Part shown: piece by piece, positions 4,418 to 63,740 of the stretch
Layout: the number at the start of each line of letters is the position of its first letter
How positions within the stretch are numbered: position 1 is the stretch's first letter
Assembly: GCF_000003815.2 (NCBI RefSeq)
Contig: NC_049982.1
Span: 22,767,879 to 22,831,878 of the forward strand
Direction of reading: 5' to 3'
Origin: Branchiostoma floridae
Lineage: Eukaryota; Chordata; Leptocardii; Amphioxiformes; Branchiostomatidae
Length of the DNA: 64,000 nt
Program-made: the position numbers and the translations under genes
Notes under the pieces: generated by a model
What the model saw: the letters and a program-made list of their open reading frames with translations, nothing else
The model's database searches: none
What the model was told of the DNA's origin: nothing

Positions 4418-7400
4418 TTAGTTGAGTTTGATCCCCCAGGACATGCGGCAGCCACCACCACGATTGTCGGTATCGTCACGATAGTACGGTGTGTAGCTGT
4501 TGGCCCGTGCACACAGCTGGCGGCTGACCCCTCCCCCACACTGACCGCCGTCTCCGTCGGGGTACCAGTAGTAGCACAGGTTCAGATCACGGGCCCAGGA
4601 CGGGGCGTTGTATGGAAGCTTCAGCCGCCACGACATGCGACACCCACCACCACGCCGATCTAGGTGACAAGTAGAAAAACAATTTACTCATAATCTCTAA
4701 AAACATGTATCATTGACAATATTTCTAGCCAAGTCAATTCATTCTTATTACTCTTGAAGCATATACTTGAACTAAATCGACTATTGTTTAAACTGCAAAA
4801 GATACTGCAGCAGTTATAAAAGGCGGTAGTGCTACGTACCAGTATCATCCCGGTAGTAAGTTGTCCACTGATTCACGGCAGCGCAGAATTCACCGTTGGG
4901 TCCGCCGCCGCCAGCAGACCCACACTGCCCACCATCCCCATCTGCGTACCATCGGTAGCACAGCTGCACGTTTCTGAACCACGAGGCACTGTCCAAAACA
5001 ATCAATGACAGAGTCAGTTTGAATTAGATCATATCAAGAAGTAAAAAGGTTTGTATATATATCATCTGTCAGGGTAGAGATTGCCATCTGTCAGGATGAT
5101 TGATGGATCATGTGTATATTGTGAGCATTTTGCATCATCCATTTCCAGGTAGATTGTGTGTCACTTTGCTGAAAACAATGTATAATTATACTGTTTGGAA
5201 GCAGAATTAAATCCAGGCTACTTTTTAATCAGCATTGGTTATAGTGCACTGTCTAAGTTATCTGACAGGTGCATCTGTTACTGACACCTATCACCATTTC
5301 TGTAGCCCTTGGGCCATACAAAACTGTACATTTACGAAAGGCACCACAACAGGAGGCTAGTCTATTGTGTTTAACTCTGATGATACTCTTCCTCCTTAGT
5401 GTTGAGTGCTAAGCAAAGAAAGCAGCTTTTTTTGGTATAACCCAGCCGCAGTATTACCTCCCGGGTACAAAGTGCCAAGGGCAGCAAATGGGGACCTTAT
5501 GGTTCCAACCCAAATGCTCAAGCCCAATGCCCAGGTACCCCACACCAACCCCAAACTGCAGACTGTGCCATCTCAACATTGTGCTGAACTGACCTGTACT
5601 GGTAGCTGGACTCGATCCTCCAGCTCATCCGGCAGCCTCCCCCACGGTTGTCGGTGTCGTCCCTGTAATACGGGGTCATCTGGTCAACACTGGCGCAGAG
5701 TTGGCGAGCTGCTCCTCCTCCGCACTGTCCGCCATCCCCGTCCGGGTACCAGCGGTAACACAGTCGGGTTGTAGAGGTAAACGCAGCAGGGGGACCGCTC
5801 TGGCCCTGGTGACAGTTATACCCAGCAATTCCACACCTGTAGCGACGTCGCCTGGTTGAAAGAAAAAGACTTTCTAAGCAAAAGTCTTCTGATGCAAATA
5901 TCCCAAATGTCTTTCGGATTTGAAAACAGAATTTAAACAATTCAGTTTGCCTTGATACCCAACCTGTCACCTTTCAAACAACTGTGATGTTGTTACTTAC
6001 CTGGCGCCACATGTGTCAGGACAACAGTCTCCGTCATCATAGCGGTACCCAGCAGTGTTGCAGCCCGGGTCACACCACCCATCTCCAACCCAGCGTGTGG
6101 GGCAGTAGCGAAACCAGCTACGCTTAGCCCTGCTCTCTTCTGAGTCGGATTCACCCTTGTGTCCGAAAAAGTAGCTTTCATCAACCTTGATTATGGCACA
6201 AAAGTTCGACAAAATATTATTAACATTGACAGCCTCATATGAAGTAATTTTCCTGGTCACATGTGAATTCCAAACTTGTCCACCCTCTAGTAAAAAAAGC
6301 CATAATGATAAAAATTCATAAAAAAAATAACAGTGCGTCATCTAAGTAAGGTGTAAATCAATCAGTTTTGCTTAGTCTGGCACATAATATTACAATTATA
6401 ACTACAGTATTGTAACGTTGCCTGTCATTTTCCTGGAAATCTTAGGCTAAATATTCATGGCGGTTACAAAGAAATTTCAGTCTATCCTTCAGCATGCTAG
6501 CAATTGTGCTTGTCTCAGGCATAGGGACAGGGACAAAATCAATGTTTGTTGCTGTTTGCGGTCCTATCAGTGACCATTACTAATTTGTTTCTACTTCATT
6601 AGCATACATATACCTCACACTTTATCTCTGATGCACGACCTCGCAGGTACTCCTTGAACTCCACATGTCGGCTGACGTCCACCGCTGACCCCAGGACATC
6701 CGTCTCTCCCTGCTTCAACTTCTCCAGAGCCTCGGTGACCTCAGTACAGTTGATCCCACCAACAAGCTCCAGGAGCGCCTCCTCATACTCATCATTGGTG
6801 GACTCCGAAACTTCATGGGGAGACTGCAGCAGAATTGTAATGTGTATGATATAGTGATGATCACCAAGATGTAGTTTGATGTTGGCCATTGAAATAATGT
6901 GCATTATTGTATAGTAATGACATTATCAGCCATATGCATTGTAACATTTCAAATCACTATGCCAAAGTGAGTGAAATTGATTTCAAACTAGTTTTTGCTC
7001 AATGAACTCTGAGCATTTGAGCTAATCTTCCACTGGTTGTGACAGGGAATTCAGATGCTATACAGGTTCATTGTACGGAGAATTCCCCTTAAGCTTTTTC
7101 CTACAAGCGCAATGAACAGTAGTCCTTTGACTTAATGAACGAATGAATGTATGGTTCATTTGTATGATCAGATAAAAAAGTATATCACAGCCATAGGCTG
7201 AATTATATTATTTTTACAGGTATTTACTTAAAATCATTGATTTAGCGATATTTGTATTATTAACGTCCTGTCTAAAGGACTGTACATCATCACTGTGACC
7301 CATTGAAGCCTTATAAGCAATGTGCCAGTGAGCAACAATAGCTGGGATTAATAGCTTCATGACTTCAATTTTTCCGAGGCTAAGGTCACTTGTAACCCCT

Positions 7401-36000: not shown

Positions 36001-39000
36001 AAAAAAGGTTAGAGAATCCTTACCTATGGTACAAACACTTTTTTTTCAAGACCAGAAACACAACCTTTTTCTGAATCCTTGCAGGGCTCTAAAGCGAGTA
36101 CTGTCTACACCTGGGACTTTGGGGATGGTGTCGTGACCTCCCAGCCAGGTCTGAGCAACAGCTCCACTCAGGTGCACAGCTACGACACGGCGGGAACGTA
36201 CGCAGTCTCCGTGTCGGCAAACAACTCCGCAGGGTGCACCTCCACCACCATGTACATCAAGGTCAATGGTAGGTACATCAAGGTCAATGGTAGGTACATC
36301 ATTTGTTTGGGGGAGAGGAAGATGCAAACTGTCCAGGCGGCTAAAATCGGGAGAAGAGCACAAAAGCAGAGCAAATCAGAAACTTTACAACATAACAAAG
36401 TGAACTTATACTAGTTATAGTTGTGTTAGTTTTAGACATGTGACTTATGTGACTTATGTGGCAGAGACTGTCATTCCTTGACTTTGACTTTATTCTGTCA
36501 TTCTCGAAAAGGACAGTTGAACATAGCCAAAGCTGTGAGGTTGATGTGATTTTAGTAAATATTGTCTGATCAAGGCCATATTTATTCCTGTATTTTGTTG
36601 GGTTCTTACTTTTTTCAAGAACAAAAGTAGATGTTTGATTTTGATTTTACAGCTCAAATTATTAAGATCTTAGTTAACCTGTTATATTTCCCTTCCTACA
36701 GATAAGATCACCACCCTGAAGGCATGTGCACCCTCAGCACTGTGTGTCAACAAACCCTGGAACTTCACTGTCACTCCATTGGCCGGGGATGGTCATGTGC
36801 CAACAATCAGTAACCAATCAGGGCTCGGACTCATCCACTATGTGTGGGACTTTGATGATGAAGAGGTAAAATGGGGGTTTTATCTTATGCATTTTAAGAT
36901 TGTGCCCATCCAAAAACGTTAACGCTAGCTCACTTTTATCCGCGGGACAACCTATATCAGTTGAATGTTAATTTAAGCAAGGTAATAGTATTTAGGGTTA
37001 TCAAGTCAACCTCCAGTAGTTTCATAGTATAATACTATGAAAATATCTCAATTTCCAACCAGCATCCATCTGGGGCACAGCTCTAAATACCCTTTTATTA
37101 AATACAACGGATATAGGTTACCCCGCAAATAAACTTTAAGGTGAGCTAGCGTTACTGAAACTCTAAGTGAATCTTGGTAGATTTGTACCTAATAAAAACG
37201 ACGTATGATATAATAATTAATAACATGAATCAATGTTTGAGAAGTTCTGTGTTTTCAGCAAATATCAGTATGCATGAGAAATGTGCCCTCTAATTGGGAT
37301 ATATACCAAAAAGAATTACAGATTCATCAAATAATTATGTACTTTCAAGTTTCATTACTACATGCAGTCAGATTTGAGCATTTATGAATAAAGAAAGATT
37401 CAAACAAACAATGACCAACACATTGCAAATTCTATCCTGACATATATTTTACTTCATGTCCTGCCTAGGAGACGGACACCAGGACCCCCCTGTTGTCCTG
37501 GCGGCCGTCCATGGTGCATACGTACAGAGAGACAGGAAAGTACAGCTGGACAGTGGAGGCCATCAACCCTGTCAGTAGGATACAGCAGGAGGAGGACATA
37601 CAAGTCTACGGTAGCTTCATCTACAGTCACATTCCTGGTTCCATAGTTCCAAGGTGCAGGGGTAATACTAGGCACCTTGGAACATTGCATGCGGACACAA
37701 ACTGAAAGAGAAGACCTCTCTAATCTTCATTTTGCATTCTCACATACCAGGACACAAAAAAATTTTCTGGACATCCCAAATTTTGCTCATGTTGCATTTA
37801 TGGGACATTTTAATTATTATAAATATCATAACAGACAACATATTGAATTTCTCTAATGTAACATACTTTTGTATTTGCTGGGTTTTAACAGACTTCTCAA
37901 TTTAAGGCAACTTATTATCAGTATACAAACCGTGTGATTGCTATCAGTTGCTCTTTTTTTTTTTAAAGCAAAGAGGCAACGAAAGTCAACTCGAGGCTTT
38001 TCTTACATTATAATATCATTCCAAAATTTTGGTTCTATCTGAGTGTTTAACTACAGATTCCAAACTTCCTGGCCAGTCCTGTTGAGACATTCTACAGTCA
38101 ATGGGATTTTTATTACTATGGGAGAGAAAACTGTTGCATAATCTTGATATTCATGGCCACCCCTTAGGCTTGAGTTTTGAATCATGGTAACCACATCTGT
38201 AACAGTTTCACGCTCTTGTCTCTACATGGTCAGATATCCTGAAGACACTGGAGCTGTCCTTCACAGCTACCTTAGACATGGCCAACAAGGGGACAGCACA
38301 GTGGAGACAGCAGTTTGGTGACCTTCTGGAGAAACAGCTGCAAGAGGCAAGTGCTGTCACCTCTCTAACATGAACAGCTTTTCTCTATAAGTGTGTAGTC
38401 TGTTGGTGTCATTATCATACAGAGGTGTAATGCCAGAGGCTCCCCTGTACTGGAGACCTCCAAATAATTCTCCTCCAAATAATTACACTCACAGTCAGTC
38501 ATCATTAAAAACATAAACTATAAGGTACAATTTGGTATTGCTAAGAATGAACGTTAATTTGCAAGGTCTTTTATATGACTCAGCTCCTAAACAGTAATAG
38601 CCAAACTATAAAACATATTTCTTCTGTGTTCATATTCCGATATGATTAAGGACTCATACGACTAGTCCTGTATATTAAATTTGTATCAAGTTTCTTTAAT
38701 TGTGTTTTATAATTAGCAACTGCTATGCAAATGGCTAAGACCATAAAATTTTAGTGATGTTAAGTCATTACTATGTACCTGGTTGATAAATAGAGTTGAA
38801 TAAATCTTCATTTTCATTCATTCATGATACAGATGCTGTTTGGCTCCTGTATGTTCATGTTTGATTATTCCTGTGCCCATTGTACCTGCAGGTGTTGAAC
38901 GTGTCCGCTGCTCACCTGGCAGTGACAGTGTTCCCGTACATCCCCACACGGGTGCTGGTGTCTGTGTTCCCACCCTGTAACCTCACCGCAGAGCTCTCTG

Positions 39001-45883: not shown

Positions 45884-48800
45884 CTATGTTTCTTGGGTAG
45901 AGTCTTTCTTGCTGTCATCCCTGTAGTCTTCTGATCTGGATACCAAATCAAAGAAACAGTAATGTTATAAGAGTTTTAAAACATTAAACACAGGACTTTG
46001 TGAGAAAAAAATGGCTGGAAGTCCATATTCTGATAGTCTGTTTACCTGTCAAGATTGTAAGACCAGTTTTGATATTCCTACGCAATATTTTTTTGTTTCT
46101 AAGTGTTTTCAGGTAACGTTAGTATTCGGAACAATTTTAGCAGTGTCTCTCTAGTGCTGAAAACACTTCCACCTTACTGTACCTGTCCTTAGTGCTGAAG
46201 ATTGCTGTTACAGTCTTTCAGATATATTCTATCTGTTGTTGTTACGTTGTCTTACAAACTATCTTGTAAAATATGCTCCGAACTTTACCTTGTTGATTCT
46301 TTGTCGTCTCTCATCCTCCAAACAAGCAGCCCTATCACAACACACAGCACAGCAACGCCACCTATCACCCCTCCCGCAACTGCAGCCGTGGTAGCGTTGG
46401 AAGCTGTATGAAAGGCAAATTGTTATTGCAAATTCAAGCAGCCATTTCTGATAGATAATCCTTCTTTAACCTCCTTGGATGTACTGAAGATCCCCAGATG
46501 CCAACACCTATGATCTGTGCTTTGTTTTGTTTTGTTTGTTGCTGTTGTTGATGTTCACATTACGTCAGTTTGATATAGTGATAACTTTCGAACATGAATG
46601 AGATGCTAACCAATGAACATTGCATCATGCGTTTTATTACCAATTATCAAGACCATCAATGTTAAAAAATGTACATGTTCAAAATGTACATCACCAAAAC
46701 CGAGATCCCAAAAAACACAGAGAAAGAGAGAGAGTCAAAGCGCCCCCTACCGACACAGGTGCCAGGCACACCGTCCCATGTCCCGTCCCTTCTGCACGTC
46801 ACTGTCCGTGTGGGGTGAGGCGTGTAACCCTCGTTACACGCTATGGTCACCGTCCCGTTTTCCACGTAGCTGGGGCCGCCGGCTTTGGAGCCATGCTCCG
46901 GTGTGGGTACGTACGGACAGGTCGCCACTGAAACACAACATAGCTTCTGGATTAGACTGTAGACACATATGCAGAAATAAAATCGATCTACATTACTTTG
47001 GACGTCAACCCGGTTAAATTTCTAAATGTGAACGCCCCAAATCGATCTCTTTAGGCCTCAAATCAGTTTGATGTTTACGACAGTTTGAAGATTAACTTAT
47101 TTAATAGCTATAAGGAATCTGTGGATGTGACAGTCAAAAGGACTTGAAATTGACTTGGTTTGGGATTCAAGTTCTCCATGTACCCGCCAATATCAGACTT
47201 CTAAATATTCATTTTTCTCTTGTGTGCTTTCTCATTTATTTCACAAGTTTTCATTTAGGTTTTCGTAACCCTTAACCTCAAGTTGCCTTCGAGTATTGTT
47301 ATCATTATGTGGTGACTTTCAGCAAATAAAAAAAGTGTCCTCATTAAAACTGAAAAGAGGGCACACCTTTCCTGGTATCTTTACTGACCGCCTGATACCA
47401 GTCATGTGCCCATCGAGTGCTTGCCGCCAGAACTTCGTTCCTTGTGGCGGTAAAATCGAACACACACTGGTCGTTGTCGCCACATATTTGCGCCATCCTG
47501 CGACCTTCGGCAGACTCTGCTGGCAAGGCTGGTGGGTTGACTATTGGTGTGAAGTCGGGGTCATGTTTGTCGGCGTACATCGCTTCTTCTTGAGCGGAGT
47601 ACACGAAGAGGGATGTCTGGCTCGTGACCGCCCCTTTTGAAAGCAAACGTTGATGTAGGGAGAAAAGACAACAAAAGAGGAGGTTACAACTTACAACGCA
47701 CAACTTCTAGAGATGTATGAAAGGTGGCCTACATTAGTGATACCACCAACACTACTCTAAATTCAGAAAGGCGGCAGCTGTAATGTAATTAAGTGGATTG
47801 TGACAGGCTGGCTTCGCGTTAGCAAAACTCAGGCGCCAATTACGTTCTACGTCTGGCTACGAATAATGTGAAATTAACGCGACTGGTTACGATCTACATA
47901 AAATGGTACGCAGGCACACATAAAGTAGATGCGTTGGATTGGCCATACCCCAGTATTTTTGACAGGTATCTAAATTAAGTGCTTGGACCAGGGTTGTAGC
48001 CAGCACCTGTCCTTCAGTCCTTTGAAGGAATTTTGCAGCTGGGGACTGAAAAACGTTTTCCCCATTCCGTCCCCTGGGACAGACAAAAATTGATATGTAA
48101 AGATGTAAAAAACTGAAACCCATGTGTTCTTCTTCACCAAAACAGATGCCATTGAAGAGCTTAGTCTACAAGCAAAAATTGCACCTCAAAATGCAGGAAA
48201 AAGTGTTTCAGAGGGTCTTGATTGAAAAAATTTCTGGGACCCAGACCCCCTAAAAATGACGCATAACGTCACGCCATGCCTTCGGTGCTCGATAGGATTC
48301 CCATTCAAAATCAAGGGGACTGAAAATGATTTCAGGCTGGCTACAACTCTGGCTTGGACCCAACCTGGTGATGTATGCAAATATAAAACACACTATAAAG
48401 TAACATTGCCACCATATTTACCTTCAGTTCTTACTTTCGATTTTAATTGACAATAGATGATATTTGAGCACTACACTCAAAGACTTACATGATGCTCCAA
48501 AGTCGTTATAGATGGTCATCTGGTCTGCAGTACTCGGAACTGTATCGCCAGAGGGCGTGGTGAAGTCATCGTCAGGATTGTCATTCCAACTTCCCAAGAG
48601 GCCCTGCGTCTGAGCAAACATATTTCAAACTGGCCATAAAGTTTTTGCCTTGTTATGGAGAAATAATTCAAAATAACATAAGGTAAGTCGACTGAGCTAA
48701 CGTAGTGTTGAAAAAACCTCCAGCTAACTGCATCTGTTACTGTCCATGGTGCTGAAGAGTGTTGCTGTGACATTTGTTTGTTTTCTTTGTTTTGCATGGC

Positions 48801-60982: not shown

Positions 60983-63091
60983 TCAGTCCTCTGATGACCT
61001 CACGCAGCAAGTGAACAACTTTGCCACCCGTTTCCAGGCGCGTCGGTACCACGGTTTGGTCCTGCCAAATCTCTGCTGTCCCGTCTTGAAGCTGTAGTCC
61101 ACAAAGTTCAGAGCCTCAAGACTGCTGACTTCTACAGTTAACTCGATGCTAATCTTTTCCGGTGGTGGGATTGTCGCATACTCATTAGAGCATGGCCAGG
61201 AAATGTGGCAAAAGTAATCATTACGCTCTACAGGTGCCGTGAGTCCACTCGTCTGGTGATGTTCCTCACCAAACAACCACGAGATATCGTAGATATCTTC
61301 ATCAAGATGTACCGGTGTCGGGCGTCCGTTCTTGCCGTGCTCATTTTCACTAAACAACCACGAGATATCGTAGATATCTTCATCAAGATGTACCGGTGTC
61401 GGGAGTCCGTTCTTGTGGTGCTCATTTTCACTAAACAACCACGAGATATCGTAGATATCTTCATCAAGATGTACCGGTGTCGGGAGTCCGTTCTTGTGGT
61501 GCTCATTTTCACTAAACAACCACGAGATATCGTAGATATCTTCATCAAGATGTACCGGTGTCGGGAGTCCGTTCTTGTGGTGCTCATTCTCACTGAACAA
61601 CCACGAGATATCGTAGATATCTTCATCAAGATGTACCGGTGTCGGGAGCCCGTTCTTGTGGTGCTCATTCTCACTAAACAACCACGAGATATCGTAGATA
61701 TCTTCATCAAGATGTACCGGTGTCGGGAGCTCGTTCTTGTGGTGCTCATTCTCACTAAACAACCACGAGATATCGTAGATATCTTCATCAAGATGTACCG
61801 GTGTCGGGAGTCCGTTCTTGTGGTGCTCATTCTCACTGAACAACCACGAGATATCGTAGATATCTTCATCAAGATGTACCGGTGTCGGGAGCCCGTTTTT
61901 GTGGTGCTCATTCTCACTAAACAACCACGAGATATCGTAGATATCTTCATCAAGATGTACCGGTGTCGGGAGCTCGTTCTTGTGGTGCTCATTCTCACTA
62001 AACAACCACGAGATATCGTAGATATCTTCATCAAGATGTACCGGTGTCGGGAGTCCGTTCTTGTGGTGCTCATTCTCACTAAACAACCACGAGATATCGT
62101 AGATATCTTCATCAAGATGTACCGGTGTCGGGAGCCCGTTCTTGTGGTGCTCATTCTCACTAAACAACCACGAGATATCGTAGATATCTTCATCAAGATG
62201 TACCGGTGTCGGGAGCTCGTTCTTGTGGTGCTCATTCTCACTAAACAACCACGAGATATCGTAGATATCTTCATCAAGATGTACCGGTGTCGTATGCCCG
62301 TTCCTGTGGTGCTCATTCTTACTAAACAGCCACGAGATATCATCGATATCTTCATCAAGATGTACCGGTGTCGCATGCCCGTTTCTGTGGTGCTCATTCT
62401 CACTAAACAGCCACGAGATATCGTAGATATCTTCATCAAGATGTACAGGTGTCGGGAGCCCGTTCTTGTGGTGCTCTTCTTCACCAAACAACCACGAGAT
62501 GCTATACACATTCTCGAAATTGGCCTCCTCATGAAATAGCCACGGGATGTCGAAGATATCATCATCACTCTGTACAGGTGTAATGTGCCCGGTGTTGTCA
62601 TGCTCATCCTCATCCTCATTCTCACCAAACAACCACGAGATGCTATACACATTCTCGAAATTTGCGGAAAGTAGCTTTGGTGACGAGGAACTTGGGATCT
62701 TGGTCGCCTCATAGACTTTAGAAAATGGTGAATCCTCGCAGTCTTCGTCACTGTCTGAGCTGGTATCTTCAAATTCAAACAAGCTAGGTGGGGAGGAAAC
62801 GGGACTATCCAGATCTACGGAACCCAAACTCGAAAGTAGGGAGTTGTCTTCTGAGTTGGACTCACTATTATCATTACTTCTCGTGATGTCCTGAGACTGG
62901 ACCTTGCGCTGCGCTCGAGGTGCAGGAGGGTTTCCCAATACGGACTCTACTTCTCTGTCGAACTCACTGTGGTTCATCCAGGATATATCCGCCAGGTTGT
63001 CGGCTAGCTGACGGACGCAGTCGCCAAGCGACGGCCGGGAGTTCGCCTCAGTCGGCCTGATGTCGGGACTCAACACCGATAGAGTAGACAT
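60983..63091 (-). CDS. Acidic tandem-repeat protein with about 15 copies of a 27-residue D-I-S-W-L-F unit
   Basis: One long exon, 702 codons from the first ATG (63091) to TGA (60983). The frame stays open another 87 nt upstream and has a possible acceptor (ATACTTTCAG near 63149), so an upstream exon is possible. Residues 1-120 are Ser/Asp-rich and already contain DISWM. Two FENVYSISWLF blocks and one DIFDIPWLF follow, then 15 units of exactly 27 residues with core DIYDISWLF, spacer SENEHHKNG and link TPVHLDE. A degenerate HISWP unit ends the array. The C-terminus is basic and amphipathic with paired cysteines (RRAWKRVAKLFTCC). No signal peptide or membrane span. I do not recognise the family. 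Acidic residues around bulky hydrophobics resemble multivalent activation-domain or docking motifs, and the C-terminus could bind or be acylated at membranes; both are inference. Antisense frames stay open only because the unit is a multiple of three. Confidence 0.8.
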   Translation of the reverse strand: MSTLSVLSPDIRPTEANSRPSLGDCVRQLADNLADISWMNHSEFDREVESVLGNPPAPRAQRKVQSQDITRSNDNSESNSEDNSLLSSLGSVDLDSPVSSPPSLFEFEDTSSDSDEDCEDSPFSKVYEATKIPSSSSPKLLSANFENVYSISWLFGENEDEDEHDNTGHITPVQSDDDIFDIPWLFHEEANFENVYSISWLFGEEEHHKNGLPTPVHLDEDIYDISWLFSENEHHRNGHATPVHLDEDIDDISWLFSKNEHHRNGHTTPVHLDEDIYDISWLFSENEHHKNELPTPVHLDEDIYDISWLFSENEHHKNGLPTPVHLDEDIYDISWLFSENEHHKNGLPTPVHLDEDIYDISWLFSENEHHKNELPTPVHLDEDIYDISWLFSENEHHKNGLPTPVHLDEDIYDISWLFSENEHHKNGLPTPVHLDEDIYDISWLFSENEHHKNELPTPVHLDEDIYDISWLFSENEHHKNGLPTPVHLDEDIYDISWLFSENEHHKNGLPTPVHLDEDIYDISWLFSENEHHKNGLPTPVHLDEDIYDISWLFSENEHHKNGLPTPVHLDEDIYDISWLFSENEHGKNGRPTPVHLDEDIYDISWLFGEEHHQTSGLTAPVERNDYFCHISWPCSNEYATIPPPEKISIELTVEVSSLEALNFVDYSFKTGQQRFGRTKPWYRRAWKRVAKLFTCCVRSSED
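61243..62518. repeat. 81-bp tandem array with 243-bp higher-order period
   Basis: Fifteen 81-bp units in perfect register (first and last DIYDISWLF codings are 1134 bp, or 14 x 81, apart). The variant GAGCTCGTTC recurs exactly 243 bp apart at 61731, 61974 and 62217, with the AGTCCG and AGCCCG variants in fixed order between, so three-unit blocks were duplicated recently. The outer units are more diverged than the central ones. Confidence 0.97.
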
Positions 63092-63299
63092 CTTGTACGC
63101 TTCGTCTTGTTCCGGTCTCAACACAATCAAGATTTCAGGATGCTGAAAGTATCTGAAATGCTTTTGTGCTGCTCAACGGAGAACGACAGCCAGTTGTGTG
63201 TTGAAATCACACGAGTTGTCGTCAACAGCAACTAGAACTGTTCTGGAACATGTTGCGTTTATTGTTCTGAAACAATGGTGTTCCTGGCATTCTAACTTG

Positions 63300-63740
63300 T
63301 GAAATGGGAGGCCGCCTCGGTCAGTCCGATGTGGGCGGCCTTCAACTGAACGCAGATAGGCCACACATCTTGGACGCTTAGCGCTGTTCCGGTCACAACA
63401 CTGCCAAGGAAGTTAAGATGCAGAAAGTCTCTAAAGTTCCTTCGTGGTACTGATCGGAGAAGGACAACTACCCGTTGGTTTACATCCCTGGCAGTTGTCG
63501 AGAATTATTTAGGAATTCGAAGACCGACTCTGTTCTGGAATGTGTATTTGACTGTGTTTTACAACAACACCATCTGATTTCCGGTGGTTATTCAAACTTA
63601 TTGCATATTGGCTCAAACGAGATTATTAAAGATAGAATTTATTTTTTAATCTAAAGACCAATAACAGTGCATAACGATATCAAGATGTACAGGTATAGTG
63701 TGTCCGGTCTTGTTGTGGTCTTCCTCACCAACAAAACATT
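63300..63740 (-). pseudogene. Decayed upstream copy of the repeat-protein gene 5' end
   Basis: 63308-63600 aligns, with many changes, to 63040-63340 (shared wording includes GCCTCGGTCAGTCCGATGT, ACATCTTGGACGCTT, TGTTCCGGTC, and CTGTTCTGGAA). This covers the start-codon region and 5' flank of the active gene. 63676-63735 (ATATCAAGATGTACAGGTATAG...CTTGTTGTGGTCTTCCTCACCAA) is a diverged single 81-bp unit. No open frame survives. This implies past tandem gene duplication. Confidence 0.7.

Follow-up and report, generated by a model that had tools for sequence, protein, structure and literature searches.

The minus strand of a 64,000-nucleotide (nt) stretch of Branchiostoma floridae DNA (contig NC_049982.1, positions 22,767,879 to 22,831,878; the whole stretch is referred to as the window and all coordinates are positions in it) holds at 60983-63091 a single open reading frame (ORF) encoding a protein of 702 amino acids (aa), with its ATG at 63091 and its TGA at 60983-60985. 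This protein carries 20 I-[S/P]-W cores, 17 of them exact ISWLF and three of them variants. With the cores designated by residue number, its parts are the following:

60983-63091, minus strand: whole coding sequence, a single ORF of 702 aa plus stop, both ends of which align with B. lanceolatum and B. belcheri proteins
62978-63007, minus strand: N-terminal LADNLADISW, aa 29-38, a relaxed core within a low-confidence predicted helix
62627-62662, minus strand: putative ancestral-type motif NFENVYSISWLF, aa 144-155 (core 151), aligned with the single motif of both relatives
62534-62557, minus strand: variant core IFDIPWLF, aa 179-186 (core 182)
62486-62521, minus strand: second NFENVYSISWLF, aa 191-202 (core 198), with VYSISWLF codons identical to those of the first copy
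61244-62458, minus strand: array of 15 canonical units of 81 bp (27 residues), aa 212-616
61193-61213, minus strand: degenerate last core FCHISWP, aa 627-633 (core 630), with the 27-residue register kept
60986-61081, minus strand: basic, Trp- and Cys-containing C-terminus, aa 671-702, conserved in the three species

The original prediction, made from the DNA letters alone, described about 15 near-identical 27-residue repeats, and exactly 15 canonical units are confirmed, with cores at aa 225 to 603. From core 198 to core 630, all 16 successive core-to-core intervals measure exactly 27 residues, and Tandem Repeats Finder reports 15.3 copies of an 81-bp unit at 61265-62500, with 96% matches and 0% indels. 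The relaxed forms that had been noticed outside the array, DISWM (aa 36), YSISWLF (151 and 198), DIPWLF (182) and HISWP (630), are all present. The rule hydrophobic-x-x-I-[S/P]-W describes all 20 cores; L-F directly follows the W in 18 of them, and a Tyr stands two positions before the I in 16, replaced by A, F, D or C in the other four. The claim that an acidic flank is kept together with the core stands for the array units and core 182, where four or five of the seven residues preceding the I are acidic (counted by eye), but not for cores 36, 151, 198 and 630, which have only one or two acidic residues in the same interval.

The open frame over the array proves little about coding: the unit length, 81, is divisible by three, and further frames run open through the same region (465 aa on the plus strand and 528 aa on the minus strand). 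Outside the repeats, the two flanks of 630 and 258 nt are also open in the true frame, and they were jointly open in none of 20000 first-order Markov simulations. The coding region is apparently intronless, since both whole relative proteins align within the one frame at 60983-63091. A scan for bacterial promoters and terminators was set aside as having no bearing on an animal gene.

Searching with a query in which the array had been collapsed retrieved two lancelet relatives, Hypp2063 from B. lanceolatum (276 aa; expectation value (E) 3.1e-49) and Bbelb_361150 from B. belcheri (250 aa; E 2.1e-46), as the only hits with E no higher than 10 among 1237 candidates, the eligible lengths being about 178 to 567 aa. 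The best local alignments cover 56% (Hypp2063) and 100% (Bbelb_361150) of the collapsed query, and in an end-to-end multiple alignment the two proteins show 55 and 58% identity, respectively, from the first methionine to the last residue. The full-length query gave none of 7994 scored candidates at E 1, with eligible lengths of about 386 to 1228 aa that exclude the shorter relatives, and a three-sequence profile recovered no further relative, only the same two of 5718 candidates, both already in the profile. These protein searches depend on shared five-residue words, so that distant relatives may escape them.

The prediction that the family is an unrecognised one agrees with our results, as nothing beyond these two unnamed lancelet proteins was matched in Pfam or in the protein searches. 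For the 702-aa protein Pfam gave only DUF5318, at 16.5 bits against a cut-off of 31, and membership was rejected because the score lies far under the cut-off; B. lanceolatum gave two families below cut-off and B. belcheri none. Sequence comparison with the PDB yielded chance-level matches only, including one phage integrase at E 1.2; a second search, with E allowed to reach 10, gave 16 sequences, the best being alpha chains of major histocompatibility complex (MHC) class II at 0.26, together with limonene epoxide hydrolase among others, and a third gave nine at E up to 1, again led by MHC class II alpha chains (0.11). In the literature, DISWLF and longer motif strings were unmatched, ISWLF occurred only in papers on other subjects as judged by title, nothing was found under the names Hypp2063 or Bbelb_361150, and papers on amphioxus tandem repeats and orphan genes were only of a general kind.

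Both relatives share with the 702-aa protein its start, the LGDxVRQLAD..SW segment, an acidic Ser block, NFExVYxISWLF, a basic Cys-containing C-terminus and an SSxD end. In contrast, each has one ISWLF instead of 17, aligned with the first ISWLF of the B. floridae protein (core 151), and carries an additional CLGxLM..Q.R stretch ahead of the motif. The relatives' counterparts of the N-terminal LADNLADISW are LADSLVDLSW and LADSLADLSW, and at the place of the variant core B. lanceolatum has DEDICNI, which matches the start of core 182 and then diverges from the WLF part. Altogether, 89 of the 250 positions in the B. belcheri protein are invariant in the three species, with 14/18 in the N-terminal segment, 10/12 in the motif and 15/32 at the C-terminal end, while the 40-residue stretch separating the motif from the C-terminus retains 4/40. 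The conservation of the motif is nevertheless modest: among 239 twelve-residue windows, four, of which the motif is one, reach its count of ten, and 767 of 10000 shuffles contain some 12-residue window that equals it. One residue of the C-terminal Cys pair is Arg in B. lanceolatum. By eye only, the C-terminal KPWYRRAWKRVAKLFTCC (60986-61081, minus strand) resembles a basic amphipathic helix with a Cys after it, of the kind seen in lipid-anchored tails.

The family seems to be lancelet-restricted and fast-evolving, with the 702-aa protein apparently its member with an amplified motif; a single ISWLF is a trait of the two known members that may not define the family. Because a single ISWLF is aligned in both relatives and DEDICNI is found in B. 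lanceolatum, at least one motif, and perhaps a second, can be assigned to the common ancestor, whereas the extended array seems particular to the B. floridae lineage. The suggestion that a single-copy motif came first and was amplified later is thus supported by the one ISWLF in each relative. Loss of the array in both relatives, or its collapse in their assemblies, would be a less simple alternative.

We propose that the gene encodes a lancelet-restricted, probably disordered acidic adaptor in which one docking motif was expanded into a multivalent array, a reading to which we give about even chances. Each hydrophobic-x-x-I-S-W-L-F motif, mostly in acidic surroundings, would dock as a short peptide in the hydrophobic groove of one partner; the unit would have been multiplied through unequal exchange or slippage, so that one chain could now engage many partner molecules with high avidity, and the basic, Trp- and Cys-containing C-terminus may serve as an anchor. 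The mechanism would be that of a multivalent docking platform in which an acidic-hydrophobic peptide enters a groove, similar to that of RAI2 on CtBP as outlined in PMC11187106. According to the same paper, tandem ALDLS motifs of RAI2 polymerise CtBP, and the likeness lies in disorder and in repeated short motifs that act by valency, whereas the RAI2 motif is unrelated, its ALDLS sites are in tandem rather than in fifteen units and its partner is known. The partner here might be a protein with a coactivator-type groove accepting acidic-hydrophobic peptides; this is the likeliest class, but as a guess it is tentative and more apt to be wrong than right.

Several observations favour this adaptor reading: the two relatives that align over their whole length with one motif each, the conservation of the motif window (modest, as said above), the rule shared by all 20 cores, the use of different codons for kept core residues, the contrast between core and spacer changes, the low pLDDT of the modelled relative and the tiles of the 702-aa protein that pass a published acidic activation-domain rule. 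Weighing against it are the substitutions within the array, the nature of the relatives' sequences, the modelled structure of the array and the outcome of an activation-domain rule. Regarding the first, the array itself has no frame-specific selection signal: the 27 distinct changes among its units are nine synonymous and 18 nonsynonymous in the true frame, and the five other readings give seven to ten synonymous changes out of 27, so that the changes split as in wrong frames. The original prediction had named equal accumulation of synonymous and nonsynonymous changes as evidence against it, and the array comes close to this; the argument for a gene therefore comes from the flanks and the orthologues. 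By position, the core has one nonsynonymous and four synonymous changes and the spacer 17 and five (Fisher p 0.03), a weak result because the last unit (603) by itself accounts for nine of the 17 nonsynonymous spacer changes. In the divergent cores, three codons (ATA, ATC and ATT) are used for I and two (TCC and TCG) for S, without a change of residue.

The 15 units are identical at 64 to 81 of 81 nt over 105 pairs (median 77), and the inner 12 at a median of 79 of 81. Among these 12, the mean number of nt differences is 1.67 for units three apart and 2.0 for neighbours, which indicates a three-unit (243 bp) higher-order pattern in units 279-495; this pattern is weak, because units six apart differ by 2.33 nt.

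Such near-identity, the undetected frame-specific selection and the single motif of the two congeners would all be expected from a neutral coding minisatellite, in which the gene is real and only the first motif matters, the extra units being slippage that a disordered linker tolerates and that adds nothing. This is the strongest rival to the adaptor, although we consider it rather unlikely, as the 15 units are free of frameshifts and stops, the cores are less variable than the spacers (weakly so) and the divergent units also keep hydrophobic-x-x-I-[S/P]-W. As for the relatives, both are deposited protein records, and arrays might be collapsed in the assemblies behind them.

The AlphaFold2 model of the 702-aa protein shows strands rather than disorder in the array, one strand lying on the core in every one of the 15 units, and has a predicted template modelling score (pTM) of 0.53. 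In this model 133 of the 702 residues have a predicted local distance difference test (pLDDT) value of 70-90, none a higher one, and 377 fall under 50; the alignments supplied to AlphaFold2 held three sequences only. Taken at face value, the array would fold into a beta-solenoid or assemble into a beta-fibre, each unit contributing a strand that has Y-x-I-x-W-x-F along one face. We do not take the strand model for a real solenoid, because AlphaFold2 is reported, in PMC11795689, to draw such structure for perfect repeats of random sequence, and because Foldseek comparison of the model with the PDB gave no match at E 0.001 and four when E was allowed to reach 10. For the single-motif B. belcheri protein the model, itself of low confidence, has helices at 13-29, 32-44, 120-130 and 228-248 and no strand. 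A solenoid or fibre is thus quite improbable in our view, and the chain is probably disordered, which is not contradicted, since this single-motif relative was modelled at a mean pLDDT of 38.

The acidic activation-domain rule evaluates charge and W/F/Y/L content in 39-residue tiles, and its equations were taken from PMC10550315. In the 702-aa protein, 73 of 664 tiles pass the first equation and 241 the third, while the relatives have no passing tile by the first (0/238 and 0/212) and few by the third (6/238 and 4/212). Among 1000 shuffles of the 702-aa protein, at least one tile passed in 992 by the first equation and in all 1000 by the third; for the relatives, 45 and 152 shuffles passed by the first equation, and 562 and 828 by the third. 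The fit to the rule therefore appears to be one of composition only, given that the shuffled protein passes the first equation in 992/1000 cases, and the Pfam scan of the 702-aa protein revealed no DNA-binding domain. By eye, the motif also recalls the AD1 of E proteins (the LDFS or nine-residue activation motif in PMC8283981) in its acidic-hydrophobic character and D-x-x-D-hydrophobic-S order, and homology is not claimed. The 702-aa protein differs from E proteins in having neither a bHLH nor another DNA-binding domain in Pfam. The ISWLF core further resembles by eye the N-terminal LTxLxWL motif of FoxJ1/FoxN and the AGC-kinase hydrophobic motif F-x-x-F-S-[FYW].

Y-D-I-S-W-L-F can also be read as a YxxxxL-hydrophobic eIF4E-binding site, like those of 4E-BP and eIF4G, which would make the array a many-site eIF4E sponge. 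The pattern, with the consensus taken from PMC3763552, is found at 16 of the 20 cores and also in the one motif that each relative has, but the same source describes so short a pattern as too common by chance. Moreover, the tyrosine varies across the units of the 702-aa protein (A, F, D and C in four cores), while I-[S/P]-W is kept. In 4E-BP and eIF4G the motif has a basic setting, whereas the ISWLF cores are in acidic surroundings and basic residues are absent beside them. Altogether, an eIF4E-binding platform appears very improbable.

A similar partial fit is observed for nuclear export signals, as L-x3-I-x2-I-x-W has class 1a spacing and the array would then be a strong CRM1 ligand. In its older, looser form, which tolerates one Trp, the class 1a pattern is present at the N-terminal motif in the three species, and the single motif has class 1b spacing in all three. 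The 702-aa protein has 17 class 1a matches, array cores included, and among the matches listed (the first eight) one, at aa 85, lies outside the cores. However, W fills the last position at the cores, where, according to PMC4168985, Trp is weak and the refined pattern disallows it, so that the cores do not fit the refined pattern; the same text indicates that acidic residues in the spacers of such signals can be repressive. Fifteen copies would, moreover, have no rationale. We therefore regard nuclear export as extremely improbable. Judged on sequence, the activation-domain, eIF4E-binding and nuclear-export readings each seem to fit in part and none decisively.

Returning to the multivalent adaptor, if the array works as proposed, lancelets would allow the comparison of one motif with seventeen in the same protein, making the effects of valency on binding and assembly testable, possibly as a natural experiment in which a single docking motif was made many-armed. 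The gene is also a clear example of a lineage-restricted gene seemingly enlarged via coding minisatellite expansion, with the single-motif form persisting in the relatives. A bolder and improbable extension is that the protein is a lancelet hub with an undescribed docking motif, hydrophobic-x-x-I-S-W-L-F, whose valency would have increased, within the genus, from one to at least seventeen. A simple adaptor would thereby have become a scaffold that forms condensates or polymers, and related species would differ mainly in valency.

Upstream of the gene, two decayed pieces of it indicate that the locus was duplicated previously:

63306-63466, minus strand: decayed copy of the gene's 5' end, 70% identical to 63037-63188, with a start-like ATG and a stop eight codons on
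63679-63731, minus strand: decayed single repeat unit, 83% identical to 62435-62487

Elsewhere in the window, seven other frames were scanned for domains, three of which had no family. Open frames at 46665-47021 and 47347-47706 (minus strand) contain a Sushi domain (35 bits, cut-off 20.7) and a mucin-4-like C8-3 domain (46.3 bits, cut-off 25), and are likely exons of an extracellular gene. A PKD domain is present in an open frame at 36013-36411 on the plus strand (42.1 bits, cut-off 23.5), and a Notch-type LNR domain in one at 6000-6341 on the minus strand (23.4 bits, cut-off 21.2).
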